Positions 1 through 23,626 of a stretch of 64,000 nt of DNA are shown in pieces. This DNA is from Fomitopsis serialis. Taxonomy: Eukaryota; Basidiomycota; Agaricomycetes; Polyporales; Fomitopsidaceae. The first letter of the stretch is position 1. The number at the start of each line of letters is the position of its first letter. Both the position numbers and the translations under genes were made by a program. The notes under the pieces were generated by a model. The model was given only the letters and a program-made list of their open reading frames with translations, made no database searches and had not been told where the DNA came from. The stretch covers positions 124,001 through 188,000 of the forward strand of contig NW_025955001.1 of assembly GCF_022376445.1 (NCBI RefSeq). The letters are read 5' to 3'.

Positions 1-2111
1 ACACTCTCGAAGACGATCCATTCTCGACATGTCATGTTGTATGAATTCCTAACGCTGCGGAACAGTGAGAACGAGCCAAGGTTAAGACCAACCGACGCAC
101 ATCAGGGCAATGAGGGAGTAGTATCGAGCAATGAAGTAGAATGCTTTGGATGATGCCCATGGCGTTCTATTGGAAGCTTAGTGAGTGGCCACGAGCGGGA
201 GCTATGTTTCGGAAGTGCGACCCGCCTCCAGATATGAATGACTGATGAATAGCGATGACCTTCAGATTCTGTATGACACACCAGCTTCGGATAGCAACTC
301 ACCTCGAGATCTGTCGTAAGGCAGATATCATAGAAGAGAAAACACAGTGCTGCCACTGAAGTTCGGTGCACCTAGGTTAATATCTTCCAGCCGTGCCACT
401 TCTTGAACATACGACGTACGGGTGCTGTGTGTAATGTCAAGCGACTGTGTTCGTGCCTCGAGTGTCTCGACTTGTATGCCGCCGACGGCCGCTGTAGTGG
501 CAGAATGATTGCCAGCCATGGTGGTTGCTCAGTCGACGATGACAGGATCCGTCAGTGTCACTGCACCTTGGGAAGGAACGCGTACATAACGAAGATGGGT
601 TGTCATTGTCCAGCCTATTCGTATAGTTCCGGACTCAGGGGTACATCGGACCCATAGTTGTTTCAAGCCCTTGAAGCCGAACGGTCAAAGCAAGGCTGTA
701 CAATAAGCTCGGACGCTAAGACATCTTGGGCGATATCTCCCCGGGACTATTATTGGTGAAGCATGATCATGACCAGCTCGGTGCGCCGGTCAACAAAAGG
801 GCTGAGTGGAAACCGCGTCGGAGATCTTGGCACAGACATAGCCCGTGATCGCCCAGGGAGAACACTTTCCTAGACTTTGACCATACTGTTCAGTGGCCTT
901 GGTGTGGCCCAATCTAGAACGAACGCTCGCGGGTCCGAGCCCAGCAATCTGAAGTGAATCGGCATCGAATGCAAGCCCATAAGTAAGCATGATGTCGTGC
1001 GTTCCGAGCCAGGAGCGCGTTCTCGATCCGAATCTACTACGCTGGACGTACCAACACAACGAATGGTGTTAGACTCGAGTGTTCATACAGCGAATAAAGA
1101 GCAGCGAGTGTGCCGAGACTCTGGAAGAACCACCGTTCGCTGTGAAACCATAGGAGTATACATGCACATACTGTGCGTAAGCTATAGCGGGCCAGATGCA
1201 GACTTTGTAGAAGCAGATTGACCAAGGTACGCGGTACTACGCGCACGGATTCTTTCGGCGGCCCCGACTCGCGGTTTATCTGGGCACTTGGCCTGACAGC
1301 AGGTTCGACATGGCGAGACTAGGCCTGACAGTCAATCACGCGTACGGTCGATAAATATTGCACATAATTGTTGGCCAAAGAGTACACCAACGAGTTCGAT
1401 ATGTCCATCGACGCGGTCGTCAATGCGCCTTGTTCGAGGCTGCGGGTGGGGATCTGACAGCAATTGAAGCTGTGTATGGACTAGGATTACCACTGGCACT
1501 GATTTAACACTGTTGTAGTCCTGCCACGCCATGTGTGCATTCGCCGCCGTCTCGCTCAGTCTTTGCAGCTGCCCGCGATGCATATGCATATCATTGTATA
1601 ACCGGCGCCCTCCTGGCCGGTCGCGGTGACGGCAATTGTGATGACTCACCTGGAATAGCAAGTCTGTGGGCATGGCAGCGTATACGAGTAGCCGTGCGAG
1701 GGGTATGCAGCTAAGAGGGATATAGGATACATCATAGAACTGTTGCTCACTAGGGAAGACGGTGCAGAGATGATGGACGAGCGAAGTTGGATGCCCATCA
1801 ATATATGCGAGGGCGCTCAAGGTAAGCTGAGGTGAGTAAGATTGGCCTCCTCCAGAGGCATCCAATGTGACGCACTGTGACTCGGCGTTACCCCGAGGAC
1901 TTATCGCGTTACTCCGGTGGCTGAGCTGCGTAGCGCTGAGGCAAGGGATGCGCGCAGCGGCGCACGGTGCGATGTAGGGAGTCTGGCGAGTGTAAGATAC
2001 ACAATGGCGTAGTATGTAGATTATAGTACTTCGTAGAGTATGGAAGATACAGGTCTGGTCCAATATGTACATAGGATAAAGATATAGACACTATTGAGCT
2101 TGAAGTGAGAA
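1..2111. other. no gene recognised
   Basis: About 2.1 kb left of the DDE transposase stop codon. The longest open frame (minus strand, 1332-2072) has no recognisable domain and a composition unlike the real exons in this window. Part of this stretch may be the flank or end of the DDE element, but I could not identify a terminal repeat. Confidence 0.5.
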
Positions 2112-2602
2112 TCAGCCTCGGGCTTTGGTGGCGGCGGCCTCGAGATCCTCCATTAGTGAGTTGGGTAGTGTACGGTGACTACGATATTTCTTTGCAGCCC
2201 AGGCGGCCTGTGCACCATTCAGTCCCTTTGCATATGCGTCCATGAAGCGACGTGAGCGTGTTGCGTAACTGCATGATAAGAGATAAACATCTCGATCACG
2301 TCATGCACGAGTCATTTTAGCACAGACTCACCGACGCATAGTCTCGATTGGAACAGCTTCAAGCGCATTGAACACGTTACGCTCCAGATCTTCCTCCCTC
2401 GACGACGGGGGATTGAGCCGGTACGTGCGCTTCGCATTTCCCCAGCATTGCTCGATAAAGTTGAGCTCACAATGGAATTTGGGCAGGAAAAGCACCTCTA
2501 CACCACGACTTTTGCATGCGGTTTCCAGAAGGCTCGGCACATTCGCGAAGTCGTCTTCATTGAAAAGCATTCGTCGGCAGCAGCAATCCCGGACACCTGG
2601 TG
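2112..2602 (-). pseudogene. DDE transposase, C-terminal part (separated from its N-terminal part)
   Basis: This is the C-terminal part of a DDE-superfamily transposase read on the minus strand. The exon 2332-2602 carries the cysteine-rich stretch DCCCRRMLFNE and the motif FHCELNFIEQCWG, which supplies the third catalytic acid. A 63-bp GT-AG intron (2269-2331) leads to a last exon (2112-2268) that reads RRFMDAYAKGLNGAQAAWA and stops at TGA. There is no start codon and neither of the first two catalytic aspartates. Both lie 8.1 kb away at 10.7-12.9 kb on the same strand. Joining the two across the Plavaka element, using one TG duplication copy, reads in frame through FKCPPGVRDCCC. I infer one ancestral gene cut by an insertion, not two copies. 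Confidence 0.85.
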
Positions 2603-2628
2603 CATCAGCAAAACGGTGTGTCGTCTGA
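2603..2628 (+). repeat. left terminal inverted repeat of the Plavaka-like element
   Basis: The first 12 bp, CATCAGCAAAAC, are the exact inverse of the right end. After a 6-7 bp mismatch the last 8 bp (TCGTCTGA) match again. It is preceded by the TG duplication. Confidence 0.82.
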
Positions 2629-2840
2629 AAGTGCCTGACGCCACATACACTCCTGAAATGGCACCTGAGCTGACCGACGCGCCTGACGCCATTCGGCACC
2701 TAATGCGTCGCTCGCGCATCCAGCTCAAGTCAGATGGCAACGCAGAGCGAGTCAGACGTGTAGGATGCAACAGACACGTCAGACAGGACTCAGACATGTC
2801 AGGCCAGTCTGCGTGGAACTCGAGTAGTGTAACACTTCAT
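2629..2840. repeat. left subterminal repeat zone
   Basis: A non-coding stretch between the left end and the transposase stop. It has repeated TCAGA and CTGAC hexamer-like motifs, densest at 2730-2815 where TCAGAC recurs every 15-20 bp. The right end has a matching zone. Such subterminal motifs usually bind transposase in CACTA-like elements; that role is inferred here. Confidence 0.65.
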
Positions 2841-2874
2841 GTAGATTAGACAAGATGTATTATATTTGTCGTCA

Positions 2875-5800
2875 CTAAAAGGCTATGTCGTGAGCATTAT
2901 GATCTATCCATTTATTAATCCAGTATGCACGGAACGCGTCAAGCGAATCCGACGCGTTGAACCCTCGTGGCAGGAAGTTCTCCCCATACACAGGAATAGG
3001 GTGAGCCAGCCTCATGATTGTGTCGAGATGGACCACCTCGCACGGTCGCTGCCCATCCTCGTCAAACTCAGGCTCGACGATCCACATGCGTGCGTCCTCA
3101 TCCGGTGCGTCACCGAGTGGCACAAACCACTGAATCAGTGCACAAGGGTAGAGCACCTGCTCCTGCCGGAAGGAGAACAGAAGGCGTATGCGAGCCACAT
3201 GCAGTGCACGGAAACCGAGCTGAGATTCATCTTTGTTGATGAAGACACAGTCATAGCGGCCGGATTTCGAGCCTCGCCACGAACGCGTTGCGCGGATGCG
3301 TTCGCGGCGCATTCCGCTCTCGCCTGCAGCATCTGTCGGAGCGAAGAACGTGGCAACCGCAGAGTTAAACACAGAGACTCGGGTCCCGACAGTGAGGCGC
3401 TGGACATAGCGTTCAAGGGTAGAATCTGAGGGCTCGTCGAGGTGGTCGGGATGACGCTGCCAGAAGAGAAAGCGAGCGACAAGCGTGGGTAGCTCAGGAT
3501 GGCCAATGGAGACCCCCAGCTCGGCAAAAGATCGCTTGGGATAACCCGAGGCTACATCGTAATTTAGCACCGTGAGTCCGTTTGCGTCTGAGATAATACT
3601 TCATGCCATGCTCACCTGGACGACGTGCGAGAAGCACAAATGCTTTGTGCGCGGCACCTTCAACATCATCCTCCGCGTCGACTTCTTCATCATCAAGCAT
3701 GCTTCTTGGTGCCGCCTGTGGCTCTTCTGTGCTCTGTTCCGGTACGTCTTCTTCTTCAACTTCCTCGCCCTCTGCGTAGCCCTCCGCCTCGTTGTCTATC
3801 CGCTGCAGAGACTGTCTGAGTGCCTGCGAAAGGACGGTGCCGTCCAGCATACCACGCGCGGTGAAGTCCACGCGCGAGGCTGCGAGCTTGTCGAGTCGCT
3901 GATTCGTGAGGAGCATCTGGCCGAGGGCGTTGTGATGGTTGGAACGGCGCCATGGTTTCTTGACAGCAACAATGTGCTTTGACTCGGTGATGGACGTGCA
4001 TAGCCCCAGCATCGCGCCGAAGTTGCGTGTGTGGCGCGGATAGTGGGCTACTGAGTGTTGCCGCGGGAAGGAGAATCCGTCGGGACACACACCTGCTTCC
4101 CGGAAGATCTCTCGGTGGTGATGATACTCCGTGACAAGACGCTCGACCTCGGCAATTGTGTCTTCTGTCTGGATAGGCTTACGAACGAGGTAGCAGATGT
4201 CCAGGAAAGTACTCATTGTCAGGATGATCCGGGGCGGAAGCAGGCCATGGATCGCAGGTAAGTACACCTATCGATTCATGAGATGTGCTATCAGTACAGC
4301 TATGCAGATCATACACGCACCTTCATCAATGCCTTCGAATCATCGCCGGTCCACTGCTTGAAGTCTCGGCCTTGGTGGAAATGGCGCAGCCCAGGGAATG
4401 GCGGTACAGCCGCAATGCTGTGGATGTCGGCAAGATGCGAACGAGGCCAAGGTATGCCGGACTCACCGTCGGTCTATCTCGTCCATGATTTCCTTCGCTT
4501 TGGCCTCTCCATGCACTATGACGAGGTACTGGCCAATCCAGGTGACGAGGTGATCCATGAAGCATCCCTTGATGATTTGATGCAAGATGTCGCCAGACAG
4601 CAGTTCGTGGATGTCTGCCCGTGGGAGGTCGTTACTGAAGGGCTGTATATGGTCATTGGTACGTCTCCAGCGTGTGCACACGAAGTCACGAACTTACGAT
4701 AATATCGCTAACGATGCCGTAATCCTCCCACAGTGTTTTCTCATCAAGACTCTTGATTAGTAGCTCCGTATGCTCACGCGTCCGACGCCCTTGCAATAAT
4801 CCCTCGTCAAGATTCTTGTGGTCGCCCGGGCACCTGGTAAGCGAGTCGGTCAACCTCCAACACAGCTAAGGTGTCTGATTCTCAGGCTGAGGAAACAAGG
4901 AGTCAACGTACGTGACACACCATCCATATACAACACACGCACACAAGGCCTGTTCAGGATAGTCGCCAGTGAATGGCCCAAGACTATAGATCGCCGTGCG
5001 GTAGTATCCGTCCCAGCACCGCAGGAAGTCGGGCTCTCTCATGTAGGGCTTCAATGGATCGAGGATGACGGAGATACTGCTGTGGTACAGCTGTCGGCGA
5101 AAGTGGCGGAAAGCTTTGGACTGCGCATGCTTCTTCTCGGCTGTCAGGTATGTTCAGTTAAGATGTTCGACGAGGTATACTGACGCACTGACTCTTAGGA
5201 ATAGCTAAAAAAGCAAGGATAACCACCGCATTGCGATGCGCGCGCCGTACGTTGTTATGCACATTCCCTGTTGATAAGTACAGGGGATAGTACTCGTTTT
5301 GACCAGTAGCGACGGAGACAGTGGTTTTGTCGCTCCCAAGGATGATTGGTGTGAACATCGCCCCGTATGTATCGTGTTCAGTGTCTGCCGCAATGATATC
5401 CTGATCAGTTTTGTCAGTGCCAATCGACAGAGAGCACAAATGAATGTACCCACCGCTTGTCGCCACGCCCAATCGCCCGATAAGCAATGAATATAGTACC
5501 GCTTGCCTGCGTTATCATACAGCCTGTACGGGGCGACGTCTACTTGACCCTCAAAGTCGACGTTCTCTGTGATGAAGTGTACCAAGGTGCGTGCGTTACG
5601 CGTCCAGACTTGGTACTCAGTGGTCATCCATTCAGGAACCTCGCCCTCCGGAAGTTCGCCAGTATATTGCACGGTGAATGATTCCCAGGGCGCGTCGCCG
5701 ATCGTTGTTGAGTCAATAATATTGTACAAGTCCTGACGATTTGCGAAGGGTGGCTCAGCTCCGAACGGGATGAGCGACGCAGCCCAGAGGTCAAGCAGCT

Positions 5801-6374
5801 CGTCAATGTTCGCCCCCGACATTTGGGCCTTCTTGAACAGGAAGCCCGCGAGCTCGAACTCTAGGCGGTTGCGATAGGGTGTATAGTCGCCATGCGCGGC
5901 ACTTGTGCGAGGAGGCGGAGGTGCATTCAGTGGTAAGATGTTCCTGTTTCCGTCGCGTCGGAGGCCTGAACCGTCACTTTGGGTGTGCATCAGTACGTGG
6001 TAATGGTGCAGAAACATACCTTCGAGGTGAGAGTGCTCTTCCTTCCTCAGATCCTCATAACGGAGAGGCCTTCGATTCTCCAGGCTCTCCAGCGGGTCGT
6101 CAGTGTCGGCTTCGACATCTGCATCACCTTCAATCCCGGCTATATCTTCAAGTGCATTGAGTGGAAGTTCGTTCCCTAGATCCTGGGTCTCCTCCTCGTC
6201 ATGCTCGTAGCTGCTATCACTGTCACTAGGAGGCGAGCTGCTGGGCGCGGATGTGTTTTTGTACGGCACTGGGTGAGCAGCATGTCGATGTTGTGTTAAC
6301 CCAGAAAGATTCTTGTACCGGCTTCCACAGGTGAGGCAGGGGTAGCGATTGGCATTGTGCACAGGACGACTCAT
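2875..6374 (-). CDS. Plavaka-type transposase, 1,043 aa, apparently intact
   Basis: The transposase of the surrounding element. The ATG is at 6374-6372. Eight exons splice in frame: 6374-5454, 5400-5193, 5140-4912, 4833-4698, 4642-4467, 4417-4321, 4267-3616 and 3587-2875, giving 1,043 codons plus TAG. The N-terminus has a C2H2 zinc finger (C13, C16, H29, H34). An acidic linker and then the Plavaka core follow, with stretches I recognise from this family such as DYTPYRNRLEFELAGFLFKK, ADIHELLSGDILHQIIKG and LTNQRLDKLAASRVDFTARG. The C-terminus reads WIVEPEFDEDGQ and GENFLPRGFNASDSLDAF. It is transcribed divergently from the second gene of the element. No frameshift or stop was found, so the enzyme could be functional; activity cannot be judged from sequence. 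Confidence 0.9.
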
Positions 6375-6716
6375 AGAAGTATTGCAACAGGCGGGGCGAC
6401 TCAGGAGAGCGCTCTCGGGACGTACAGGGACTTGGATTGCACCGCGGCGAGTCAGAGTCCACACCGAACTGTTATCATGCTGAATAACCGGGTAAATACA
6501 CCATCGACTCCCGCCCCACGCGCATTGCAACCCATCCAATCAGAACGTGCTGCGTACGTCGCCATGCTGCATGATCTCAGATATGGATTGCTTACCACCG
6601 CATTCCCTTCTTCCCAGTCCCACCATCATTCCAACTTGCCATCTCGACGTCTGAGACGTCTATACCTCCATTCATTTTTGACTGTTTATTCACATCCTAA
6701 CTCTATCTTGACCAAC
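6375..6716. promoter_or_regulatory. shared divergent promoter region of the Plavaka element
   Basis: These 342 bp separate the two start codons, so they must hold both promoters. No clear TATA box stands out. The part next to the plus-strand gene is pyrimidine-rich, as is common upstream of fungal start codons. Confidence 0.5.
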
Positions 6717-8296
6717 ATGATCCGAACTAGGGCCTCAAACTCGTCTAAACACCCTGGCTTGGTCGATCTCGACCCTGAGGATGAAGGCCCTGAGAAGGGC
6801 GAGAGGAAGCCCCGTCGTACGCCTGCCGAGATGGCTGCCTTTCGAAAGCAACAAGCCGAGGAGAAGCGCAACAAGGAGCGTGAAAGAGCTGAGACTGTCA
6901 AGACCGTTGCGACTCACGATGCTCAGATGCGTCAGCGTGACGACCTTGAGCAGCATGCACCCAAGGCTTCTGTCCAGGCTTCCAACGTCGTGCCTGCTAG
7001 CAGTCAAGGTAAGTGCGTTGTACTGAAAAACTGACCTCGCTAACTAGTACGGGTCTCGTGCACAGATCTTCCGGTCAAAACTGTTCTGGGCGGCATGTCC
7101 GAGCAGACACGACCGAAGCCGCACCCGAAAAAGAGGGTTGGTCGTGCAGATATCAATGCTTACCAAGCCATTCCTGCGACCGATCCACCATCTGAACAGA
7201 GCCCGGGCCTGGTCAACACACCTCAGGTTCTGAAGGCCGCACCCAGAGTGGCCGAATCTTCTCAGCTTGCAACGACGGGAGGGAATAAACGTAAGGCCAC
7301 ACCAACTCAGACCGCAGAGTAAGTACTACGTTTATTGCACACATTGACCACTAATTCACGTCGCACCTGTGACTCCACAGCTCCGAGACTATACCTGCGG
7401 ACAAACGTTCAAGGCCCTCACACCCGTCGGGCCTGCTCCGCACCTGGGAAGGCCAGCATCAGCCTCCGCTTAAGAATGCACCGAAAACTCGCAAGTCACG
7501 CAAGTCTAAGAAGACGGTCATAGAGTCCGATGAGTCGGACACCAACACAATCCTTCCTCGTGAGCAAACCATGGCGTCCATCTTTGATCTCACTGCCCCC
7601 AAGGGGATCTCTGCTCTCGATGATGGCGAATTGTCGAGCGACGCTGACCAGCCCCATCAAACCGATGATACTGTTCGCCATGGCGGATATGCGGACTCGG
7701 AATCGGAAGACGGACTCGGAGGTGATGAGGCCTACGAAGACGTACCAGTTGCTGGCAAGAGTGGCGTCACGAAGGCGCCACAGGCTGGACAAGTCAACTT
7801 TGGTGTGGAGAGCCGCAACACGACCAAGGTATGTGATTAGCGAAACCTCTGATGAGACCTTTTGTTTGGTCCAAGTCATGCGTCGTAGTAGTATACTTAC
7901 ATGCTTGGTGCATTGCCAGGCTAATGTCTCGGTCACCCGGTCGAAGCCGGATGAGGCTACGCAGCGCGCCGCTTCCCAGGCTGCCAAGAAAAACAAGGGT
8001 TCTCAGGGTGATAAACGGAAGGCCTCTGAACGGGCACGAAATGAAGATTTGCCGTGTTCGCAGCGTCTGTGGCTTGGGCAGTTTGTGCCGACATTGTTTG
8101 AGCACCTCGGCATGCTCGACAACCCCTGGGACACTCAGGAAGCCAACGACATGGCCGTCCTCCAGAAGTGCTGGGACGAGGTCTTCCCTAACATTGAACA
8201 CCGTGTTACGACGGGTTCTGCGGTCTATCAAGTGGTGAGTTATCTCAAGGTAACATTCGTCTTGGACTTACAAGTCTCGGAAATCCAACAGGCTCA

Positions 8297-8300
8297 GCGG
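8297..8300. repeat. target-site duplication of the solo LTR, left copy (GCGG)
   Basis: GCGG directly precedes the LTR and recurs at 9281-9284 directly after it. An adjoining A could extend the duplication to 5 bp if the LTR ends in TC and not TCA. Confidence 0.8.
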
Positions 8301-9280
8301 TGATACGCCTCTAGGCTATCTAAGCCCCGAAAACGCAATCTAGGCCTCTACGATGCTCCGAAGCTCTTAGAAGATCCACTACAACTGTTCGAAGATTTCG
8401 AAGTTCGTAGCCAATCCTGGCTCACCTTAGAAGACTATCCGCGACCTTCCGGCACCTCAGTGACGCTATAGGAGCACCTACCCACCTATCTAGACGACCC
8501 CAGAGCACGCAGGTCACTCAAAGATACACTATGTGTTAGAAGACACTCGAACATGTTAGAAGACGTGCTACGGTGTTAGAAGATCTCCTGCGAGACCATA
8601 GGATGCTACAGGATGTCCAGTGAGTCCTTGCAGGTCGTCTCACATCCTCAACGAGTGGTCTCGGTTTCCGGCGTCATGTGATAGCCGGTCGGCCTTCGGA
8701 CCACTGGTTAGCGAGCCCGAGAGCAGTTGTCACGTGTTAGAAGCCATAGCCGGATGTTTGGGGCCGTCGGAGCTCCGTAGTGGTAATAGCCGTGTTTCCC
8801 TGTATATACTCTGGGACTGGTTCCCTTCGAGTCGGAGAGACCCCCTTACCCTCTCAATCTCACCTCGCACCGGCGAGGTTCGTCAGCCAGTCAGTACGTT
8901 CGGAAGTCAGCAAGTTCGCCAGTCAGTCAGTACGTTCGAAGCCAGTCAGTCAGTTCGCCAGTACGTTCGCCAGCTCGTAGTTGCCCCGAGAGGCTCTACA
9001 CTTCTTCTCCTGCCGTCGCTCGCCTTCCTTGTCACCGTTCGTTCGACACGTCTGTCGAAATCCTCCCTCCTACCTTCGAGGCTTAGCCCTCGTCTTCGAA
9101 CAGTCTTCGACATCTTCGAAGCTCTCCCACGTCGTTCGGAGTCTTGTCCGTCCTCCTCCTTCTTACCTAGACCACTGTACAGTCCCCCGTACATCTCATA
9201 GACGCAGAGGCCTCGCATACCACTGCTCGACCTCACGGTTGGGTTTTTGTGTGGCTTTTGTGTTCTTTTCGGTCGCGTCA
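8301..9280. mobile_element. solo LTR of an LTR retrotransposon, 980 bp
   Basis: It begins TGATACGC and ends GCGTCA (TG...CA ends) and is flanked by GCGG on both sides. It contains a TATA box (TATATACT near 8802), then a pyrimidine-rich and repeat-rich stretch as expected for a U3/R/U5 arrangement. The motif TTAGAAG occurs six times (8367, 8427, 8536, 8556, 8576, 8737), three of them exactly 20 bp apart. CAGTCAGT/GTTCG repeats fill 8880-8980. There is no gag, pol or second LTR, so this is the product of LTR-LTR recombination. Excising it restores the interrupted exon exactly. Confidence 0.88.
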
Positions 9281-10116
9281 GCGGAAGTGCCACGACTGGC
9301 GCACGAGCCTCGGGAAGAATGGTGTCGCTGCCGTAGGCAAGTACTGGGGTGACAGTGTCATGTCCGCTGCACTACGTGCCACCTACGTTGCTGCCCAGCT
9401 GCGCGAGGACACCGAGAAGGATGTTCCCATTCCAGGGACAGCGTCGTTCCTATGGGGCGATGTTCGTCAGCGGCCGGATGGAACTGTCAAGGTATAAAAT
9501 CTATTTCTACTTGTGGAATCACTCTGATTGCCATTCGCGTCGTGTAGAGGCGAGGCCGTCTCCAGTCGCGCGAGATACTGGAGACCCTTGCATACCACCT
9601 GCAGGCAACACGGGCAGCGCACGGCGGCTCTGTTGACTATCCCCGCGGTGCTCTACTCATGTCAGCAATTGCCGTAAGTCTTATCTCTCGACGCTTTTGA
9701 TGTGGACGCTGCTAGGATGATTGAATAATCTTGTACTTTGCAGGTGGAGCGGGCTTGGACCCTCTGGAAGACTGGCAAGCATGAGTATGATCCGAAGTCA
9801 GACAAGTTCAGCAATGATGCTTGGCGTCACCGACTCGTCGACTACCGTATCCTCATCGAGACGCTCGACGAAGATGCGTGGGCGAGCATCCTCACGGCGT
9901 CCGATCGCATCATGCAAATGCTTCCGAAGCCTGCGATGGACATGGTGGACGCCTTGCCTGCCGAGGAGATTGCCCAGAAGAAGGCAAAGGCTACCAAGAT
10001 GTTCGTCTCTGACTCGGAGTCCGACAATGATGACGAGCTTGAGGTGCGTGTCTATGAATCGATTATTTCCCTCGATGTCTGAGTTTTATTTAATGCATCA
10101 TTGCATCTCGCAGTGA

Positions 10117-10694
10117 CGCCGTTGAGCACCAACAAAGGCCTCCGCAGCGTGAGCAATAGATGTCGCATTCGAAGACGCAGCAGGGCTCTGAGAAGTGCCT
10201 GTCGATCGTGGTGCAGGCGCCACCGTCTTGATACCTGGCTTTACGATTTGTACAACCCACCCTAGTTTCCATTTCAAGTATAATCCGCGTTGGCATCGGC
10301 TTCTCTGTCGATTTCGGTTGGTTCATTACGTCTTTCGTTCGATCTGGGATTGTCATTGCCTTTCAATTCTTTGTGGACATCTGCTTTTTGATGCCTCATG
10401 CTCCGTTTATTATAGTATCTAGTATTCCCACTGGAGGACATTCTATACAGTACCTTGAATGCAAGTGCACTCGTTAATCGCTGAACGATTGTGGTGCATC
10501 CCGCGGCTGCGCGTGCTGGTCAGAGTCTGTCTGAGGTGCTCTGAGAGCAATCTGTCCTCGCCTGACAGCGGTCTGATTTCAGCCCGATGTCAGAAATGCG
10601 GTCTGACAACAGGAATGAATCTACTCTTTTCAGATGTCATGGTCCGATGCTCTGTTCAGCCTGAGATGCCCGACATCAGTACAGTCAGACAGTC
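10117..10694. repeat. right end of the Plavaka element: 3' region and subterminal repeats
   Basis: It has no coding content. From about 10515 to 10694 the motifs TCAGA, TCTGA and TCTGAC recur at roughly 10-20 bp spacing in both orientations, mirroring the left subterminal zone. Confidence 0.65.
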
Positions 10695-10721
10695 TCAGAC
10701 GAAGTCGATGTTTTGCTGATG
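10695..10721 (-). repeat. right terminal inverted repeat of the Plavaka-like element
   Basis: It reads TCAGACGA, a 7-bp divergent core, then GTTTTGCTGATG, and is followed by the TG duplication copy (10722-10723). Confidence 0.82.
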
Positions 10722-12878
10722 TGGGCACTTGAATCCTTTGCACTCGGCGCGCTTGCCTTTCATATCGCCGTAACCGCGCTCCTCCAGGATGATCGCCATC
10801 CCCTTAAAAAGCCCTGCGTTCGGATGACCGGGTGGGAAATAAAATGACTGCGGGGAGCCGTCCTTCAAACGACCCGGAGCCATCTGGACGGTGGTCTTGG
10901 TCGGTTCGCCGTTACGCCCGTGGATGATCGCGCCGTCAGCGTCCCTTGCGGGTACTTCGACGCCCCAGTTCTTCCCTTTTTTGGGGGGAACTTGGGCATC
11001 TTCCGGGCAGATAGGGCATCCTCGGCTCGCTTGATATGTGTGCGTGCATTGTCGAAGACGAGCACATGGTCATCGTGAGGGAAGTGTTTGCATATGATGT
11101 CCATTGCGACGTCTGCCTGCTTCTGAATCTCCTCGTAGGTAAAATAGCCATCACGTCCCTTGCCCGCCTTGAAGAAGACGCGCGCTTCCTCTGGATTATC
11201 CTCCGAGTGGTCTGGAGCGCGAAGCCAACCGTAATCAGCAGAAACGAAATCCGCAACCATTAAAGATGCACCCTCGCCCTTTTGGTACGGTTTAGCCTTT
11301 TCCGTCTTGTGCACCCATCGCTGCTTACGGCGATCATGCGCATAAAATGTTGATTCATCGTGGAACCAGACGACAGTTCTGCGATTCTGTGGAAATGGCC
11401 CCGTATCTTCGGTACCATCAGACTTCCATTCACGCAGCCTTGGCTCAAGCTCCGCCCATCTCGGAAGGAACTTCCCTTGACGGTAAGCAACGACATCGTC
11501 GCGCTCGTGGCCGTCAACATACTGGCCGCGCGGTGTGAGCATCCAGCGGTACCCGAGACGCTTCATCCATCGCTGTGCTGTCGCAAGGGAAATCGTTTTC
11601 TTGGTGCCATAGCGCTCCTTGACATCTGGTTGGTCCAGGTAATGAACGAGATCCTCTGCTTTGACATATTCACCTATGGACTGCAGATGAAGGAAGATTT
11701 CTTCACGAAAATCTTCATTGTCGAGCTGCGAGCGTGCCCAAGTGCCGTACAGATTATGGGGGAGATTCTGGCGGTCTCGGATGTACGCCTGGGTGCGGCG
11801 ACGTAGCACGCGGGCATGCCAAGGTCCTGCGCCCTCGGCTTTGGCGACCTGGAGCGACGCTGAAATCCAGTTCTGACCAGCGCGAACACCATATCGGGAG
11901 TTCGATTGCGGATCCGTGTAGGTGCACAGAAGACGGCGCATGCCCTCCAGCCGCTCCTGGAGAACACGATCCAATTTGGGGTCTTTGTATCCATACCCCG
12001 TCTTTCTTGGCGGCCGAAGGAGAAGTTTGATGTCTGCAAGTGCAGCCTTTGCGGACTCGAGCGATGGTGCCTGACGAGCCTTCGGATCGAAGTCATCATC
12101 AACCTCGACAGGCTGGGCAGCATCGGATTGTGAGGCCTCGGTACGCATGGCATGTTCCACATCATCCTCTGCATCTCTGATCTCATCATCCTCGTCAGGA
12201 TCTGTGCCCGAGTCCGAGTCTGAATCTGCAATACTGATGAGATCACAGGGCTCGTCCTCGTCCTCGTCCTCGTCCTTCGAGTCAACACCAGCTTCATCAG
12301 CCAGGTCTCATGTAAGCACACACATTGAACTCACTTCAAGTTCGCCAGGCTCAAATTCCAGCAATGAGTCTGCTCGCGCTGGCCCTAGGTTCGCCTGGGA
12401 TGTTGGTTGTGACTCATCAGGTCGCGGGAAGAATAACTCCACTGTTTGAAGCCATAGGGCCACTCCAGGGTCTACAGTCTCTGTCTGCAACTCGTGGCTA
12501 TCCATTGGCAACTCGGACGCCGGATTTGGTGGGTCCAATGACGAACTCGGAAATGGAGACAACGGCGAGCGAGATTCACCAGGTGGCAGTGAGTGAGTCC
12601 CAGTCAAATCCTTGTCTGCGAAGCCTGGGCTCATGCTATGGTTCTCGAGTACCATGTTACAGGTATGCGAATAAGCGGACTGTGACGGTGCACTACTATT
12701 GCTCGGAGCAGTCTGTTTCTGCCATGGCGAGGTTAATGGTCAGTCTTGTTGTCACAGGAAGGATGAATTCAAGTTGACACACCATCTCGACATCTACGTC
12801 AGCTCCGGAGGCCCGCTTAGCCTTCTTGTGTGGTATCCCAAGGTTCTTGAAGCGCCAGCTTCCCTTCCTCTTCGGCAT
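10722..12878 (-). pseudogene. DDE transposase, N-terminal and central part
   Basis: Minus strand. Exons are 12878-12783 (lysine/arginine-rich start MPKRKGSWRFKNLG, likely nuclear localisation), 12718-12335 and 12274-10722. The central part has a helix-turn-helix-like stretch (SLATAQRWMKRLGYRW). The first catalytic aspartate is in VVWFHDESTFYAHD and the second in HVLVFDNARTH. The frame breaks in a homopolymer pair (T6G6, 10977-10988): one base is missing, after which KNWGVEVPARDADG continues in another frame to FKCP at 10722, where the Plavaka element begins. The third catalytic acid lies in the separated part at 2332-2602. With the one-base gap and the insertion both removed, the exon lengths sum to 819 codons plus stop. 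This is a dead or non-autonomous copy. Confidence 0.85.
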
Positions 12879-13440
12879 TTTGTTGCGCACGGGCAATGTT
12901 GCTGGCAGGCGGATGACTCGGGCTGCAGTGGCGCGGGCGCTTCGCCTCGTCGCCTCCCCGAATAACCGTCGAAAACCCACCACACTATGCTCTCGTGTAG
13001 TACTGTCGAAATTCGAATGAGGATTTGTGTAGGCAAGCAGTCCAAATATTTTCTCGTTTTCTATTCTATTTTAGAGTGTACACGAAGGTTCCCTATCGTT
13101 TTACAGTGTTATTGTCGGGTTTCTGTCACGCGCGCCTCTTTCGTTGGATAGTTCTGGAGGAGGCCAATCTTAACTGGATAAGTAGTAAGCGGCTAGTGAT
13201 CGCTTAACTTACGTTCAGTTATCTATTACAGTATTTGTTCTATTTAATGTCGCTCATAACAATCAATGCTACTTTCTCCCTCCTTCCTCGTCTCGGTCGC
13301 TGCGGACGTCCGTTAGCCATGGCTTCAGGGGTCGTGTATAGTAATCTTTGGAGCAATGAAAACAATAGAATAGGGAGGGAAAAGCCCGTCTAAGTACCCA
13401 TTACCCACCTGATCAGCATACTTGACTCAAATTCCGCGAG
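12879..13440. other. intergenic, nothing recognised
   Basis: AT-richer sequence upstream of the DDE transposase start. It presumably includes that element's promoter and end; I could not identify a terminal repeat. Confidence 0.45.
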
Positions 13441-13499
13441 GTTATTGGTCACTTTGCCGGAGTGGTTAACGGGATCGCCTGCTATCGATGATTGTCAGC

Positions 13500-13830
13500 G
13501 GTTGAGCTTTGCGGGCGGCGGTGACGGGTGGCCACGGGTGACGTGGACGGCAGGTGGGTGGCGGGGACGACGAGGGGCAGGCACGAGGGTGGCGCGAGGG
13601 GAAGAGCAGGGTGGCGGGCAGACACAAGGGCGACTGAGCGAGGGCAAACAGGCGGGTGGCGGGACGAGGTGTGGACGACGGGCGGTGACGTGGGCGGCGG
13701 GCGGTGACGGGGACGACGGGCGGTGACGTGGACGACAGGCGGGTGGCGGGAACGACGACGGGCAGACGAGGTGGGCGAGGGAGAGAGCGACATGGGCGAC
13801 GAGGACGGGGCGTGAGTAGGGCTGGGTAGG
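13500..13830. repeat. G-rich minisatellite with a 19-bp unit
   Basis: The plus strand is strongly purine/G-rich. The clearest units are three consecutive 19-mers related to GGGCGGTGACGTGGACGAC at 13680-13698, 13699-13717 and 13718-13736. Further degenerate GGCGGGTGGCGGG and GGGTGACGTGGACGG copies lie around them. Multiple G3-4 runs could form quadruplexes. Long minus-strand open frames here are proline/arginine-rich by-products of the repeat. Confidence 0.78.
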
Positions 13831-13838
13831 GTATGAGT

Positions 13839-13890
13839 GATTCGAACGACCGGGAGATAGCTCGCGGGTGTTCGAATCGCCCAGGTGACG
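13839..13890 (+). other. tRNA T-arm-like hairpin (not a complete tRNA)
   Basis: GGGTG-TTCGAAT-CGCCC (13866-13882) folds as a perfect tRNA T-arm and is followed by a T5 run at 13893. A 9-bp inverted repeat, GATTCGAAC (13839) to GTTCGAATC (13870), overlaps it. No matching acceptor, D or anticodon arms are visible upstream, so at most this is a tRNA remnant or a chance B-box. Confidence 0.25.
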
Positions 13891-14146
13891 TGTTTTTGCT
13901 ATCCCGTAGGACTGTTTGGCACTCTAAGAGAAGGTGAGAACTCTTCACCATACGAGGCGCGCGTAGTGGCGCGCATATTGCCTCATTGGGATGCACATAT
14001 ACTTTCCAAATAGGGGTCGCGTTGCGCGTTTCGGAAACGCCCGTCCTGCCAGGCACGTGACGGACCGCTCACCGGAATCTGGATTTGACCTGGATGCAAC
14101 AAGCACGGCAACCTTTTGAAGTACTTGGTGCTGGAGCTCAACGGCA

Positions 14147-15718
14147 ATGTCAATGAGCACGAAGTACGCAAATCTCCCCGACATCGTGAGCTGCATGATC
14201 CTCCACATCATGTTTTTGCTAATAGTCGCCTGGGACGGCCGATCGCAGGACACGGCTCCGGACGTCTATGAGACTGAGGATGCGTTCCCCGCCTCTCATG
14301 ATAGTGTATGCTATGTGTCGGCATTCGCGACGCGGCAATACTGAACAGATGCGCTCTAGAAAGGCGATTCAAGTGATGAAGAGCTGGGCCTGACAGCCAG
14401 GCCAGCAGTTCGCGGCAAGAACGGAGAGACGGGTGGGCGCGAGGAGCTGGACGGCACTCACCTGAGCCCAGAGGAGGCCAGTAGGAAGTTTCGAAAAGCG
14501 GAGAAGAGTACGTCCCATGAGCTCACTCAACATACATCACATTGACGGCTTGCGCTATCCGTGTTTGTTGACACGGCTGTACAGAACATCACCGTCCACG
14601 GATACAGTATGTCTATCCTCCATCCCCGACTTCCGACACGTCGCCGCCATCAACGCCCTCTGTCACTCCTGCCCTACCACTGTCGTACAGACTTCGGATG
14701 TTGCAAACCGAATTGTCTACTCTGGAGACCGAGTTGGCAGACCCATCAAATCCACTGTTGCAGAGGGAACGAGAGGCAGGACATGACCCGGGCGAGCTGA
14801 TCCGGGGAATGGTGGATGTGAAAAACCGCTTGGGCAAAATCACCAAGGTGAAGGAGGGCAAGGGAAAATTGGTCAGTGTTGTTCTCGGGGAAGACTCGGC
14901 GGACGAACAAGATGGCGCCAGAGGAACCGTCGGGGAGGGCAAGGATGTTGGCAAGCGCGTTCTGTCCGATCAAATCGTCCCGCTGTCGACGAACACCGGA
15001 GCACCTGACGTCAAAGACATTGTCGAAATGGACCGTCGCGTCGGTGAACTGGAGAAGAGTGTTGGTGCCTCAAGCACTGCTCTAGATGAGGTGAGCCGTT
15101 GATGGGATCCTTCCTTCCCCTTGATTAATTTAGGTTTTATCTGCATAGCTCTCTCCATTGCCACCGCCGCTTCTGCCTATGCTGACTCGCCTCAATGCAC
15201 AATTAACACTCCTCACCCAACCGCGCCACGTCGACTCAATCTCTCGTCGTCTGAAATTACTTCTGTCCGACCTCGAGCGCGTGTCCAGCGCCAGTGCTCA
15301 TCCACATGGTTCCCAACGCCGGCAGTCATCCCATCACGCACCGACCCCTGCATCGCCGCATCCCGCGGCATCCAGCGGTTCCGCTCCTACAATACCCGCG
15401 GCACTGTATGACCAACTCACACCAATTCTGACACGTCTTGCACCGCTTCTGCCACATATACCCCATGTTCTCACTCGCCTCCGCACCCTCTCTGCCCTTC
15501 ACACATCCGCCGCTGGTTTTCAGAATACCCTGGAGAGTCTCGAGGAGGAACAGAAGAGGGTTCGAGCAGTGTTGGAAGAGCTCGAGCGCGCTGTGAATGG
15601 CGTTGAGAGCAGCATCAAGGAGAACGAAGAGGTCATCAAGAAGAATGTGAAGGAACTAGATGACCGAGTTGAGGATGTAGGACGGAGAGTAGACGAGTTA
15701 CGCGTTAGCAAGGGTTGA
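14147..15718 (+). CDS. DCTN2: dynamitin (dynactin subunit 2, p50)
   Basis: Shoulder subunit of dynactin, the cofactor of cytoplasmic dynein, needed for nuclear migration and vesicle transport in hyphae. Exons 14147-14185, 14249-14305, 14360-14507, 14585-15090 and 15149-15718 splice in frame to 439 aa, a normal length for fungal dynamitin. The N-terminus reads YANLPDI/DTAPDVYETED across the first intron and carries the family's hallmark PDVYET motif. Next come a short segment LSPEEASRKFRKAEKK, a Pro/Ser linker and the coiled-coil core (TELSTLETELADPSNPL). The C-terminal 70 residues are a long coiled coil (SLEEEQKRVRAVLEELERAV). A second ATG at 14153 is an alternative start. The gene looks intact. 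Confidence 0.9.
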
Positions 15719-17690
15719 CCGGATCGAGCTACCACCTGTCTGTGCCGGTTGACATACGATTCCATTGCTTTCGTGTATTGTATCCGTTCCTGGTAGTCCT
15801 TGTCTCTTCAGGTGCGTCAACATCCGATGTCGACGGAGAGGCCCTGGCATTGGGTGTACCTCCAAGGTGTATGTGGCTCGGCACTTACGTCTTTCAGACC
15901 AATCTTCTTATTGTGCATGCTACGACGTGCGGTAACGTACAGCATTGCTATGGCAGTCGTCGTTTCGACTTCCATTCCATCCCCCATAGCTGTTGACAGT
16001 TGCGGATGAGATAGCATATAGAATCGGGATACCGCCTTTCTACAGAGACGACGGGCATTGGGCAACATAGCCGTGGACTGACATAAGTTTGTCAAGTCAA
16101 CATCTGGTTATTCTAGCAAGTCAGGCAATGCTCGGCCTGAGGACAAGCATGTCTGGTTTCTGTTCCGATGAATTTGGAGGACCGCGACGTCTGCCAACTG
16201 CCAATGTCGCCAGTTCCGCTTGTCCTCTCCGCTGCAATACTACCACTGGTAGGGCGGTCCGCACAACTGACCGTTGACAGCCCCGTGTAAGATTCTGCTT
16301 TTTGTTGAACCAGTGTCGCTCGATGACGATGCCGCCATGAGGTGTAGACTGTGATCGGCGACAAACGCCCGTTAATAACGACATAACAGGCAATTGAATG
16401 CTATCCCTTGTGCATGGCACTACACTTGCGGGTGAAGCACGAATACTTAGTTTCAAATAGTACTTTATGCGTAGTCAGACATGCGCGAAACAGACAGCAC
16501 ATAGAGAAGGGGTCAAGTTTCAGGATCGGTCCGGCGGTTCAAACGTATGCGTATCATGCGTCACGGTACCAGCTCCTTTTCACACATCTCGACATTCAAT
16601 TGAAGCATCTGGCCGATTGGGCACTGCCTCATGAAGGTGATAGGATCTCTTGGTGTGTATCTACGAAACGGGATCTCGGAATTAAAGCCAGGGGCAGCGA
16701 TTGCGACTGCACCGACTCATGCCGCGACGGAACTTGCAGTGCCGCAACGATAACAGTGGCCAAAGGTATTGAAATACTTCCGCTGTGCTTATGAACGCCG
16801 AGCGAGGATCTGAGTACTTTCTGAGGGACACTCGGCCGTAGTATACTTACGTGGTACAGACGGAACACTCTGACGCAAGCTGAGCCGCAGTGCGCAACCG
16901 CTGGCTTTCACTGACTCGGTGGTCGTCACATGACCGATAATCTACCTTTCATGGCAGTCGTTGAACGTTACGAGTCAGTACGCGCACAGTGACTCCAGCT
17001 GTTCTTCGTGCTTCGTGAAGTCGACACTTGCGATTCATATACAAATATCGGCATGTGCTTTTCCTCGCTGATAGGGCTTACGCTTTCTTCCCAGGCATCA
17101 GAAGAAGCGTACCACACAGTGTGCAAACGGTGGCTCGTTTATTGTCGTCGCGGCAGGCCATCCTAGGATCCGCACATAATATGGAGTCTACTTCCGAGCC
17201 CGACGCAGCTACTGCGCCTGTCATGCGCCAACAGTGCTTGTTTCACGCATTATCAATCCTTTGATTAAGACATCGCAGGGGAGCTTCAGCAGTGCGCGCC
17301 CACGGCGGACGACCCGCATAGGATGACTCGGAACTGATCGAGAGTACTCCCTGAGGTAATGTTCGCTTTGCTCGCACACATATTTTGATGTGCTGTCATA
17401 GTGGCCGCTAGCCGAATCAGCGGTACTTGCGTACGCATCCAGTGGTCTGGACACTTGGTTCCCCGGACCGCCAAATCGTGGTATCCCGGGTTGTTGAGCT
17501 GTGCACTCATTGACTCACTAGGACAAGCAGGCTTAGAGACCATCCTCGGGCGCGAGCGATTTCCTTTATAGTGTGTACCACCTTCAGGCTCCCTCATATT
17601 CTCTCTCCCATACTCACCACATCTTCTCCTTCGAGCCTCGTTACGAACTCTGGTATAAGAATTGCCAAGCCTAGCTACGCACTGCACATA
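15719..17690. other. intergenic, no gene recognised
   Basis: About 2 kb with only short, domain-free open frames on both strands. No tRNA, transposon end or tandem repeat was evident. Confidence 0.5.
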
Positions 17691-18044
17691 ATGTCTGAAC
17701 CCGATCGTAAGTAGCGAATTACCCTCAATGATGTTGACTCACTAACCATGTCAATAGACTGGCGCATGAGACTCAACAACTACCTGCAAGGCAATGGTGG
17801 CCCCCGCACATTGAGCTGGGAAGTATATCAATCTGGCCCATTACACCAGCCTGTGTGGACGGCGGTGGCCTATGGTGAGTACTGTGCATAATACTGACCA
17901 ATATCACGCCAGAGACTGACTGTGTCTTCAGTCAGAGGAGTCGAGTACGGAAGAAGCACTGGTTCCAGCCAGAATGCTGTCAAGGAAGAGGCGGCGCGAC
18001 AAACGCTTTCTGCCCTTTATCACGACCGTGGTGTGCGGGGCTGA
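17691..18044 (+). CDS. 81-aa single double-stranded-RNA-binding domain protein
   Basis: Three small exons (17691-17706, 17758-17874, 17932-18044) splice with matching phases to an 81-aa protein. Almost all of it is one dsRBD. Helix 1 is WRMRLNNYLQ; strands follow as LSWEVYQSG, VWTAVAYVRG and VEYGRSTG; helix 2 is SSQNAVKEEAARQTLSAL, the usual G-x-S-(x)n-A-K-x-x-A-A pattern. The gene lies in otherwise empty sequence between dynamitin and a secreted peptide. Stand-alone dsRBDs bind structured or double-stranded RNA without catalysis. A role in RNA silencing, RNA virus response or RNA localisation is possible but not shown. The start ATG is the only one that keeps the frame. Confidence 0.78.
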
Positions 18045-20335
18045 CCGCGAATGCCCGCAATTCCTGTAGGTATCATTTCACGAAGACTACCCAGTCTTGT
18101 CATTTGTCTCCGCTAACACCCCTATAGTCAGTCGTGTACATGTGCTTTGTATCTGCTCTGCTGTTCTCGTCGCAAGGGCCACCACCATAACGTACCACTA
18201 CTTTATGCTATTTACGCTATCATATTGACTCTGACTCATGACTTCCATGGACATTTGTTCTACTATATACTATACTTGTATCGATCGCGAGCTATAGGCA
18301 CCCGTACCGCATAGACTCTCTAGTCGTTGTCCTAGGTCTGCGCGAACTGTGTTATTGTATTGCCCGTCTCTGCATGTACTCTACTCCTAATTGTACCACC
18401 TCGTATATCTAGTTGGGCTGTTTCTGACACCGGCCGGGCCCCTACCCATTGCCTACCCGCGTTCATCGGTGCTTGACCGCGCACGGGTTGCCAATATTTG
18501 CGGACCATGATGTATGTTCAGCGTATGGTGGCCCCACACTTGATCGCCGCCCATGCATCCCATGGCAGGTGAACCATATGCTGCCGCTGTGCAAACGTCA
18601 TCCACACGCTGCGCCGTCGCTTCGTATCCCCGTCGCGCTCATGTCTCGTTTTCCCTACCAAGACCCGAGTGCGTCCATGGTCCGAACTGAGAGCGCTTGC
18701 ACGGCTGCGTGAACGACATCGACCGAGCTGCCCTTCCTGATCGCATGGTTCCGACAAGACTGACAGCTCGTGCCACAGGATCATGCACATGGTTGACAAG
18801 ATCTGATCGGTTGGCCGTAACGGCCTCTATTGCGACTGCGGCCCTCTGCGGTCTGCAGCAAACATGTGCACCTATCAGCAGTTAGTACAGTTGCCGGGGT
18901 GGCCCGGAGGTATCGGCTGTGGGTCCGAATAGCTTCGCACAAACTAAGCTGCGATCGAGCAACGCATAACACCAAGACTGAACGACTTTGCACGGATCGC
19001 CGCCCCAATCGGGACGTTGACCGCAGTAAGACACAGGGCTTGCGCACGCGCGTTGCCCTCGGCAACGGCAGCATTGGTCAACGCGAGCTCCTGAACGTGT
19101 TGCATAGGCAAGCGCACACCGAACCGCAGCTCAGATGCGACTGCCTGACAGTGGCAATTTGTCGTCCTCGTCATAAGTATTTGATCCCGTTCAAACAAAG
19201 GTCCACATAATATACGCACCGCAGCTTTTGACAGAAACCACCATTCTCTACGGCGGTGATAGATAACGTGTGGCATTACTAGGCAATGCCATTCATTAAT
19301 CACTTCGGCGCTTACTGGTGCATCGAGCACAGTACGTGCAGTCCAACCAGTGTACAGAGGGATGCATGTCGTCTGTTGCTGGTGACGTATGAGTACGATT
19401 GCTATTCATTGGGATGCAGCTGAAACGAAACATGCCTGGCTGTGATTCAAAGAACCAATCAATGATGATCTGGGGTCGACATCTTACGACACTCTTCGAC
19501 GCTCATGCTTTACTAGTAGATGAGTTGACACGCACGCTCGCCTGCCAGAGTTCTCTCTCATGAACGAAGTGCACTTCATACTCTTTCATCCCACCTGTGA
19601 TGTTGTAAGTGAGTGGTCGACCAACACCGCGCTCAATATGTTTACTACCCACCAACATCTCGGACGGGACGGAGTCGGCGACCAGGGAGTCGTTTGTAAT
19701 TCGAAGATGAGACTGAGTGCGACGTATCGGACGTACACCCAAGGATGATTCAGGACTATTCTGCGCGATGCAAGCTTGGGGTAGTCTTCAAAAAACAAGA
19801 CTGAAGGGCAGCGTAAGAAAGGTGCACTGGCCGAGATCACCGCATGAACAGTGTCAGCTTGAGTGGGTTGTCCACGCATGGTGGAAATATAAGCAGACAT
19901 ACCTTGCCGTACGCGATCATATTGCGGTCCAAATGTGTGCAGAACGAACGTCGAGGGAGAGACATTAGCCCGGGAAGTACTGCTTGCCCCCCGGGCCCTG
20001 AGTCACAGTGGCAAGTGTCCTTGAGTCTCCTCGGGTTCCCCGCTCAACGCAGCGTGCGTCGCCGCCTTCTCCGCTATTACCAACATGCCTTCAGTAGGCT
20101 TCCGTGCTATCACGTTGGTGATTATCATAGGGAGGGCGTATGGTGCACGTCTTCCGATCTATCATGTGAGATAACATTAAGCAAGCACGTTGCCGAACCC
20201 AAGCGTGTGGGCCTGACAGTGATGCGGGCAACGGATTGAAGCGGAATGACTGCGCTTCTCGTATTGCACCCAGAGTGCCCAGGGCTGCCCAGGGTAACTT
20301 ACCGGTGGGAATCACGAGCGCGCGTCTGACCGGGA
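18045..20335. other. intergenic, no gene recognised
   Basis: About 2.3 kb of roughly even base composition. Several open frames under 130 codons exist, but none has domain character or plausible splicing. Confidence 0.5.
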
Positions 20336-20342
20336 TATAAAA
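20336..20342 (+). promoter_or_regulatory. TATA box of the small secreted peptide gene
   Basis: TATAAAA lies 61 bp upstream of the ATG at 20403, a normal distance for a highly expressed fungal gene. Confidence 0.55.
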
Positions 20343-20402
20343 TGACTGAATGCCCCAGTGCCGCTAGCTGAGGGCCATAGCTACGCGGTAGACCCGGTCA
20401 CC

Positions 20403-20525
20403 ATGCGCTTCTCTTCCAGCGTCGCATTCATCCTCATCGTCTGCGCCACCTTCGCGACTGCGCTGCCTCAACCTTGCGACCCACATGTGCCTGCGTGCGG
20501 GCACGAGGATGGGCCTGAGGTCTAG
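20403..20525 (+). CDS. 40-aa small secreted peptide
   Basis: A 40-codon frame with an obvious signal peptide: MRFSSS, then the hydrophobic run VAFILIVCATFATA, with likely cleavage after A20 (...ATA-LPQP). The mature peptide would be only about 20 residues, LPQPCDPHVPACGHEDGPEV, with two cysteines that could form one disulfide. It ends in TAG. A TATAAAA box precedes it. It lacks a C-terminal CaaX motif, so it does not look like a basidiomycete mating pheromone precursor. I do not recognise the family. Downstream splicing into a longer product cannot be excluded. Confidence 0.5.
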   Translation: MRFSSSVAFILIVCATFATALPQPCDPHVPACGHEDGPEV

Positions 20526-21134
20526 GGACAATCCCAGACAACTCAGTTGTGATGGACATGGATCCAGTGAGTGGCTTCGTGTCAGCGCGAGCCAATCGAA
20601 CTGACCCTGTAGAACGAAGCGCGATGAAGAAAAATGACTGAGACGGAGGACTTGCGGCGCAACGTCTTCTGTATTGAGGTTTTGCGAGGAGAGGGGTGGG
20701 AGAGCGAGCTCTGGGTCTTGCAACGGTTGTGGTTTGAGGTCGACAATGATTTCATTCTCACCCACTAGACCTGCCATCGCGCTGTGCGTTATATGAGATC
20801 GACCAAGAGGTAGTGAACGTACCTTCGGGCCTGAGTTCCTCCTCCACGCAATGCAGCGCAAGTATACGGCAGCGTGGATGTGAGGGTGGAGCGCAGCTCG
20901 ATACCTGTAGCGAGACAGCCTCGAAATGGCGTCTCGCCGTTTCCTATTATGGTATCTACGCTGTGAGTGGTCATGACGACGGTGAACAACATTATCTATA
21001 TGCTATATCGACAGAAGTGCGAGACTCGAATGACGCCTGGGCAGCGATCGTCAGTCACACTCCGGCAAACGACAAAAGACTCACCTGAACTTCTCTCCAG
21101 CCGAACGAAGGACCCAACATGAACTGCAGCCCGC
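20526..21134. other. intergenic, nothing recognised
   Basis: Lies between the peptide gene and the convergent phosphatase gene. A 165-codon minus-strand frame (20364-20861) runs antisense over the peptide and has no domain character. Confidence 0.4.
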
Positions 21135-22605: not shown

Positions 22606-22696
22606 CACGGGCGAGTGATCATCGTTCCGTGAGAGGTGCGGAGATATTATCCCTAACAGTTCGAGCGGTATTATGGATGACAGACTGCCTAGGTGC

Positions 22697-23352
22697 TTAG
22701 CCAGAATTGAAACGGCGCATGAGAAAGTCATACTTTATGGGATGCGAGCATGACGTCTTGACAGACGACTGGTCTAGATATGCCGTGGGCCAGCCGTACG
22801 GCGGAACGAGCCTTGAGGATATTGCAGCACGAAGCTCCTGTTGTATGTCCGGATTTGACGACGGATAGCTTAGACGCGGTTGGGCCTGGGACCCGGGTGC
22901 ATCGTCCGCTATCATTGTAGACACAGTCGCCCTTTTCTCGCATAGCCACCAGACTTGGCGGGTTGCATATCGCGCTTGGTGTGCCTGCAGCTGCTTCACG
23001 CGCTCCGGCATCTGAACGGAGAATGGCACGTATGCAACAGGACATCCTTGGGACGCAGGGATCTGTCGGTCAAATCGGCAGTGGACAAGCTCCCGGCGTC
23101 CCTCACCTTTTGGCCCGAATTTGAGGCGGCTGTACTCACTTGCATGGTGTTGCGACGCCAGTCGGACGAGCTAGATGTACACATTCATTCAGATTAGGAC
23201 TTGAGGGTGAGGTCTCTTTTCAAACCACGCACCTGGGAGACCTCCACTCCTCCTGCTTCCGACGACCAGTCGTGGGAGCCAGCGCCAGGCAGAAGTTGGA
23301 TGCGGTCTGGACTTGTGAGATGCAATGCAGGGTATGTTTGAGTTTCTGACAT
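22697..23352 (-). CDS. unrecognised protein, 166 aa
   Basis: Minus strand. Three exons (23352-23233, 23170-23140, 23046-22697) join with matching phases to 166 aa. The first exon reads SETQTYPALHLTSPDRIQLL. Across the junctions the product reads LVRLASQHHARCPVAYVPFS, then VQMPERVKQLQAHQARYATR, then QVWWLCEKRATVSTMIADDA. This is helical, charged and looks genuinely coding. The stop lies about 90 bp before the phosphatase start on the same strand, so the two could be misjoined parts of one locus. I know no function. Confidence 0.5.
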
Positions 23353-23546
23353 AGTCAGCACATCCGCCAAAAGCCCCAAAGTCGAGAAATATGAAAGAGT
23401 GGAAGAGAGATAGTTGTATGATTGTTTAAGATGCTCTACGCTAACAGTCAAGGGTCTCCAGCTCGGCTAAGAAGGGAAATCATTGTTGCCATTCCATCAA
23501 TAAGAATACTATATATGGTGAAGGAACGATCACTGATTCAAGTTTG

Positions 23547-23626
23547 TAACAATCGGTAACAATCTGTAACGACTGGTAATGACTGGTAACAAATGTTAAT
23601 AAACGGTAACAACCGTTTACAAACTT
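23547..23626 (+). repeat. 10-bp-periodic array upstream of the chitin synthase gene
   Basis: Eight consecutive decamers related to GTAACAATCG, each starting exactly 10 bp after the last, with single to few substitutions. The array ends 124 bp before the chitin synthase ATG. Ten base pairs is close to one helical turn, so a repeated factor site or a decayed minisatellite are both possible. Confidence 0.75.

Follow-up and report, generated by a model that had tools for sequence, protein, structure and literature searches.

A probable three-level nest of transposable elements in one haplotype of Fomitopsis serialis: a DDE_3 element split by a Plavaka element that in turn carries a solo long terminal repeat

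Two fragments of a DDE transposase gene lie on the same strand of Fomitopsis serialis DNA, one on each side of a Plavaka element that itself holds a single long terminal repeat (LTR), and the locus raises the question of whether they are separate relics or the halves of one gene and, if the latter, how the whole arrangement came about. F. serialis is a wood-decay fungus, a basidiomycete of the Polyporales. The DNA examined here, called the window in what follows, is a 64-kb stretch of its assembly (positions 124001-188000 of contig C346), and the assembly searched comprises 66.2 Mb in 806 contigs. Our answer is that the locus very probably results from three ordinary insertions, each inside the previous one, in one of two haplotypes; the nesting gives their order, namely a DDE_3 element, then the Plavaka element, and then an LTR element. 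The coordinates of all features are collected in Table 1.

The evidence that the two fragments belong to one gene comes, above all, from proteins in which the same sequence is unbroken. A search with the 5' piece as query was read through its best 120 of 1,025 proteins, where 108 homologues align over the terminal part of the 5' piece, 98 cover the 3' piece, and 98 align with both. In 84 of these 98 homologues, not a single residue separates the two pieces, the offset in the other 14 being -2 to 5, and a protein from Obba rivulosa (P0049) reads AECKGFKCPPGATDCCCRR across the junction. The two parts are also adjacent in relatives from the same genome, located on C144, C556, C2, C802, and C457. 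When four of these paralogues were read in a single frame, those on C144 (632 codons) and C556 (591 codons) were free of stops and those on C802 and C457 had one stop each, with all four continuing past the break point. None of the own-genome paralogues examined ends at the break, and neither of the two observations that the original prediction had named as refuting it was made. Taken singly, the pieces stay under the Pfam cut-off of the DDE_3 profile (28.6 bits), the 5' piece matching positions 2-43 with 18.3 bits and the 3' piece positions 100-145 with 26.0 bits, and the unbroken C144 relative exceeds it with 43.0 bits. A comparison of the C144 transposase with the PDB gave no match at E <= 1. 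The original prediction, which had proposed this alignment to homologues as its own check, described the fragments as one gene on one strand, and this is what the abutting homologues, the C144 relative that reads through, and the target duplication at the break all indicate.

All the introns of this gene are of the GT..AG type, and its exon lengths (96+384+1553+269+157), once recomputed, again sum to 2,459 nucleotides, leaving a remainder of 2 modulo 3, one base short of whole codons. In the assembly, the reading frame changes within a homopolymer near 10974-10988, where the original prediction had placed a missing base, and the overlapping frames on each side of it match homologues. Since the C144 relative spans both this place and the break in one open frame, the frame change would stem either from a lesion in this particular copy or from an error in sequencing. 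The deposited gene model, P0001 (B0H18DRAFT_1119954, 668 aa), bypasses the frame change by means of an intron and takes its last eight residues from the Plavaka end; the reading given here corrects this model, whose end lies inside a transposon end.

What separates the two halves of the DDE_3 gene is a Plavaka element. Its end core, CATCAGCAAAAC, starts at 2603, and the inverted copy ends at 10721; the match is perfect for 12 nucleotides, past which the ends are weakly alike, with 15 of the first 29 positions shared in an ungapped comparison. The bordering sequences, ..CCTGGTG and TGGGCAC.., contain the TG target duplication. The transposase profile PF18759 is covered by successive exons in the right order (1-99, 102-169, 160-242, 242-288, and 289-325), four of these five pieces being over the cut-off by themselves and the 242-288 piece being under it at 17.1 bits. 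The exon segments that could be aligned to a 70%-identical relative on C61, which begins with TG followed by CATCAGCAAATC, are open; the transposase appears intact, and the element might still be mobile. PlavakaB families, of the CMCT clade, are described as having 5'-CATCA..TGATG-3' ends and duplications of 2 or 3 bp (PMC12730594). The window element appears to fit PlavakaB by its ends, its duplication, and its PF18759 domain. In those parts of the element that were tested, no TET/JBP gene could be recognised.

Besides its transposase gene, this Plavaka element carries a second one, in whose fifth exon, nine bases in, the LTR is located; the splice sites after the LTR are approximate. A search of the genome with one 105-residue exon of this gene gave eight matching places, one of them being the exon's own. 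Of the other seven, six (on C61, C201, C624, C13, C34, and C796) have a match to a Plavaka transposase no more than about 5 kb away, the one on C12 being the exception, and the copies on C13 and C34 might represent a single allelic pair. Among the 4,486 candidates covered by the protein database search there were two homologues, P0122 and a Rhodofomes roseus protein, and in both of them the parts before and after the LTR align in order and close together; the gene of the C61 relative is likewise uninterrupted by an LTR. Because copies are found beside Plavaka transposases and the homologues are continuous over the place of the LTR, we regard this gene as a recurring companion of this Plavaka group, broken here by the LTR. 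The split of what had been called a cargo gene is therefore real, even though the label is less apt than that of a conserved partner gene. Sequence-family scans of the gene gave no convincing match, and no Pfam match was found.

The innermost level is a single LTR with GCGG on both sides and full-length relatives elsewhere in the genome, in agreement with the solo LTR that had been predicted inside the Plavaka gene. The search for it returned 122 candidates, of which 40 matches were scored, the window LTR itself included, with identities of 94-100%; the family has at least dozens of near-identical copies. Out of the 39 others scored, 29 were fetched as the comparison set, and they include nine LTR pairs located on the same contig, mostly about 5.1 kb apart (e.g., on C2, C153, and C305). 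The four bases bordering the element are shared in eight of the nine pairs and in six of eight other single LTRs. At the edges of the window LTR, there is no primer-binding-like or polypurine-like stretch such as adjoins the LTRs in full-length copies. Three substitutions in its 980 positions are absent from the 29 other copies and fall at otherwise near-uniform positions, a count that is an upper bound, as 29 of the 122 candidates were compared. Five internal open reading frames tested in a full-length member (L015, L066, L014; C2:249259-255276) had no Pfam match and revealed neither a reverse transcriptase nor an integrase, so that the family may be non-autonomous.

The outermost level was the one missing from the original prediction, which let the nest end with the DDE gene; its actual ends are at 1839 and 13170, where an 18-nucleotide inverted repeat is bordered by a TA duplication. 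The two repeats match at 24 of 27 positions overall, the first 18 without a mismatch, and TA stands on both sides. Ends adjoining TA were also seen in relatives: on C144, TA is followed by AGGTTGGCCTC..; on C68, ..GGCCAACCT is followed by TA; and on C802, both ends (AGATAGGCCTCA) adjoin TA, in an element of about 2.9 kb. After subtraction of the Plavaka element and one copy of its duplication, the outer DDE_3 element measures 3,211 bp.

An origin of these inverted repeats by chance was considered and rejected: on each strand of the 64-kb window, there is a single occurrence of the 12-nucleotide Plavaka core and a single one of the 18-nucleotide outer core.

The same assembly also contains what is probably the site before the nest. 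Contig C597 (19,280 bp) matches window positions 821-1839 with its bases 1-1019 at 99.7% identity and window positions 13171-31457 with its bases 1017-19278 at 98.4%. It is, thus, colinear with 821-31457 minus exactly the 11,332-bp nest, and the two matches meet at one TA. The 30 bases of each flank, joined by a single TA, are present in C597 with one substitution. Close matches to the left flank (1501-1839) are confined to C346 and C597, and a search of the assembly with the initial 3 kb of the right flank gave two full-length matches, on these same two contigs. Given this colinearity, C597 would be the second haplotype, carrying the empty allele, and, provided that the empty form is the ancestral one, the arrival of the nest is later than the separation of the two alleles.

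Together, these features suggest a history in three steps. In the first, a 3.2-kb cut-and-paste element of the DDE_3 (IS630/Tc1/mariner) type would have entered a TA, as its ends, the TA duplication, and the empty allele argue. In the second, for which the evidence is the Plavaka ends, the TG duplication, and the homologues that run through, a PlavakaB element with its transposase and its partner gene would have entered the DDE_3 gene at a TG. This event would have placed the two catalytic D motifs and the E motif on opposite sides of the insertion, with the presumable result that the split outer copy can no longer make its own transposase. In the third, an LTR retrotransposon would have inserted itself into a partner-gene exon, as the single LTR with matching 4-bp flanks suggests, and recombination between its two LTRs would then have left the single one. 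The layers look young, since the Plavaka exons are open where tested and the LTR has but three private substitutions in 980 positions. The use of the LTR to order the events, as originally proposed, holds for their relative ages, which follow from the nesting; for absolute dating, three private substitutions provide a weak basis. As for the Plavaka and outer elements, their nearest DNA relatives, about 70-71% alike, are too distant to date them.

Several points weigh against this reading and have to be considered next to it. The two alleles differ at 3 of 1,018 positions on the left and 171 of 18,213 on the right, that is, 174 of 19,231 over all the aligned flank; in the flanks nearest the site, they differ at 7 of 3,977. 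The near flanks predict 0.86 private changes in the LTR, where 3 are seen (P = 0.088), which amounts to a weak and non-significant lean towards an LTR that predates the arrival here; the whole aligned flank predicts 4.4 such changes (P = 0.82). One LTR pair of the family (on C256) and the single LTRs L028 and L033 are not bordered by matching 4-bp sequences. For the Plavaka relative on C61, a search of the 5 kb of C61:27401-32400 with at most one mismatch did not reveal the right end. The frame change in the homopolymer may be an assembly or base-calling error. Finally, it is by its colinearity that C597 is taken as the probable second haplotype.

The alternative that survives best, even though we consider it unlikely, is that the nest had formed elsewhere and reached this TA ready-made, as one 11.3-kb composite moved via its outer ends by the transposase of a related intact copy. 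On this view, a single new insertion would suffice for the time since the separation of the two very similar alleles, and the three private LTR changes, set against the expectation from the near flanks, would find an explanation; moreover, related DDE_3 elements do exist in the genome, and the frame of the one on C144 is open. Against this, the LTR shows no excess of changes over the whole flank, and the nearest outer relative is about 71% alike in DNA, which makes action in trans uncertain. A load of 11.3 kb is large for elements of the DDE_3 type. In addition, neither a donor site nor a second copy was seen, the Plavaka end and the outer flanks being single in the assembly except for the empty allele. 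Were this alternative true, a nest of elements would travel as a unit. A stepwise build-up is the plain reading, and that all three insertions were made at this very site is the likelier but unproven history.

It is considerably less probable that C597 was emptied by a precise excision, or that it represents a duplicated region instead of an allele. An excised site and one that was never filled are indistinguishable from one sequence alone; however, there is no footprint past the single TA, and the 19 kb of unbroken colinearity, together with the presence in the assembly of the flank in two full copies, weigh against this reading. As for the idea that the two DDE fragments are unrelated relics found near a Plavaka by coincidence, their separately sub-threshold DDE_3 scores are outweighed so heavily by the gapless homologues, the contiguous paralogues, the shared strand within one pair of outer ends, the break exactly at the Plavaka end with its TG duplication, and the empty allele on C597, that we reject it.

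Table 1. Features of the nested insertion, in window positions
Feature	Position	Strand	Remarks
TA target duplication of outer element, left copy	1837..1838	.	TA also at 13171-13172; one TA in C597
Whole nest, bounded by outer DDE_3 element	1839..13170	-	11,332 bp; missing as a unit from colinear C597
Outer element, left terminal inverted repeat	1839..1865	+	First 18 nt perfect
DDE_3 transposase gene, 3' part	2112..2600	-	Exons 2600-2332, 2268-2112; catalytic E motif
TG target duplication of Plavaka, left copy	2601..2602	.	
Putative PlavakaB element	2603..10721	-	8,119 bp (7,135 bp after subtraction of LTR and one copy of its duplication); CATCA..TGATG ends
Plavaka transposase gene	2878..6404	-	From PF18759 exon pieces and comparison with C61 relative
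Plavaka partner gene, split by LTR	6717..10079	+	Exons 6717-7008, 7066-7318, 7381-7828, 7920-8234; continues 9285-9494, 9729-10079
GCGG target duplication of LTR element, left copy	8297..8300	.	
Solo LTR	8301..9280	.	980 bp, TGAT..GTCA
GCGG target duplication of LTR element, right copy	9281..9284	.	
TG target duplication of Plavaka, right copy	10722..10723	.	
DDE_3 transposase gene, 5' part	10722..12878	-	Exons 12878-12783, 12718-12335, 12274-10722; both catalytic D motifs; frame change near 10974-10988
Outer element, right terminal inverted repeat	13144..13170	-	Partner of 1839..1865

Other repeats were observed in the surroundings of the nest. In the flank near its right edge, positions 13537-13786 consist of G-rich, minisatellite-like direct repeats with units of about 19-44 nucleotides. 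Farther away, the stretch 37519-38830 is about 80% similar, in inverted orientation, to C597:15662-16970, inside the part of C597 aligned to 13171-31457, and a further copy of it (67%) is located upstream of the window on C346.

Nesting is common among transposons. Nested elements, solo LTRs, and insertions confined to one haplotype are all of known kinds, and no new kind of system is described here. The locus stands out by how complete its evidence is, each level having both ends and a target duplication, and, with the probable pre-insertion allele in the same assembly, it offers an almost ideal example of how nested insertions can be read. The ends of the outer element with their TA duplication and the empty allele on C597 are newly recognised beyond the original prediction. 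The locus also provides an independent example of PlavakaB that agrees with the published ends and duplication (PMC12730594), and draws attention to the little-studied partner gene of this Plavaka group.

Compared with the IS630/Tc1/mariner-type DDE_3 elements of Agaricomycetes, the outer element shares the TA duplication and the short inverted repeats, the DDE_3 domain being over the cut-off in its unbroken C144 relative, and differs in that the window copy is split. In textbook Tc1/mariner elements, the spacing between the second D and the E is 34-41 residues; here it is far longer, with 164 residues in the C144 relative and a range of 130-181 (median 159) among those homologues, 68 out of 119, in which both motifs were found. 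This long stretch is a property of the DDE_3 group, not of the window copy, and, because the spacing lies outside the textbook range, we file the outer element as a DDE_3 element with a TA duplication and not as a textbook Tc1 or mariner. The Plavaka element resembles PlavakaB (PMC12730594) in its CATCA..TGATG ends, 2-bp duplication, and PF18759 transposase, and differs from it, as far as its parts were tested, in carrying a partner gene without a Pfam match in place of a TET/JBP gene. The inner LTR, with its TG..CA ends, its short target duplication, and its lack of an internal region, does not differ in kind from the solo LTRs known from LTR retrotransposons. Finally, like other insertions in one haplotype of mushrooms and other dikaryons, the nest would be present in one haplotype and absent from the other; contrary to those, here three levels are resolved at one site, a duplication accompanies each of them, and the same assembly contains the probable empty allele.

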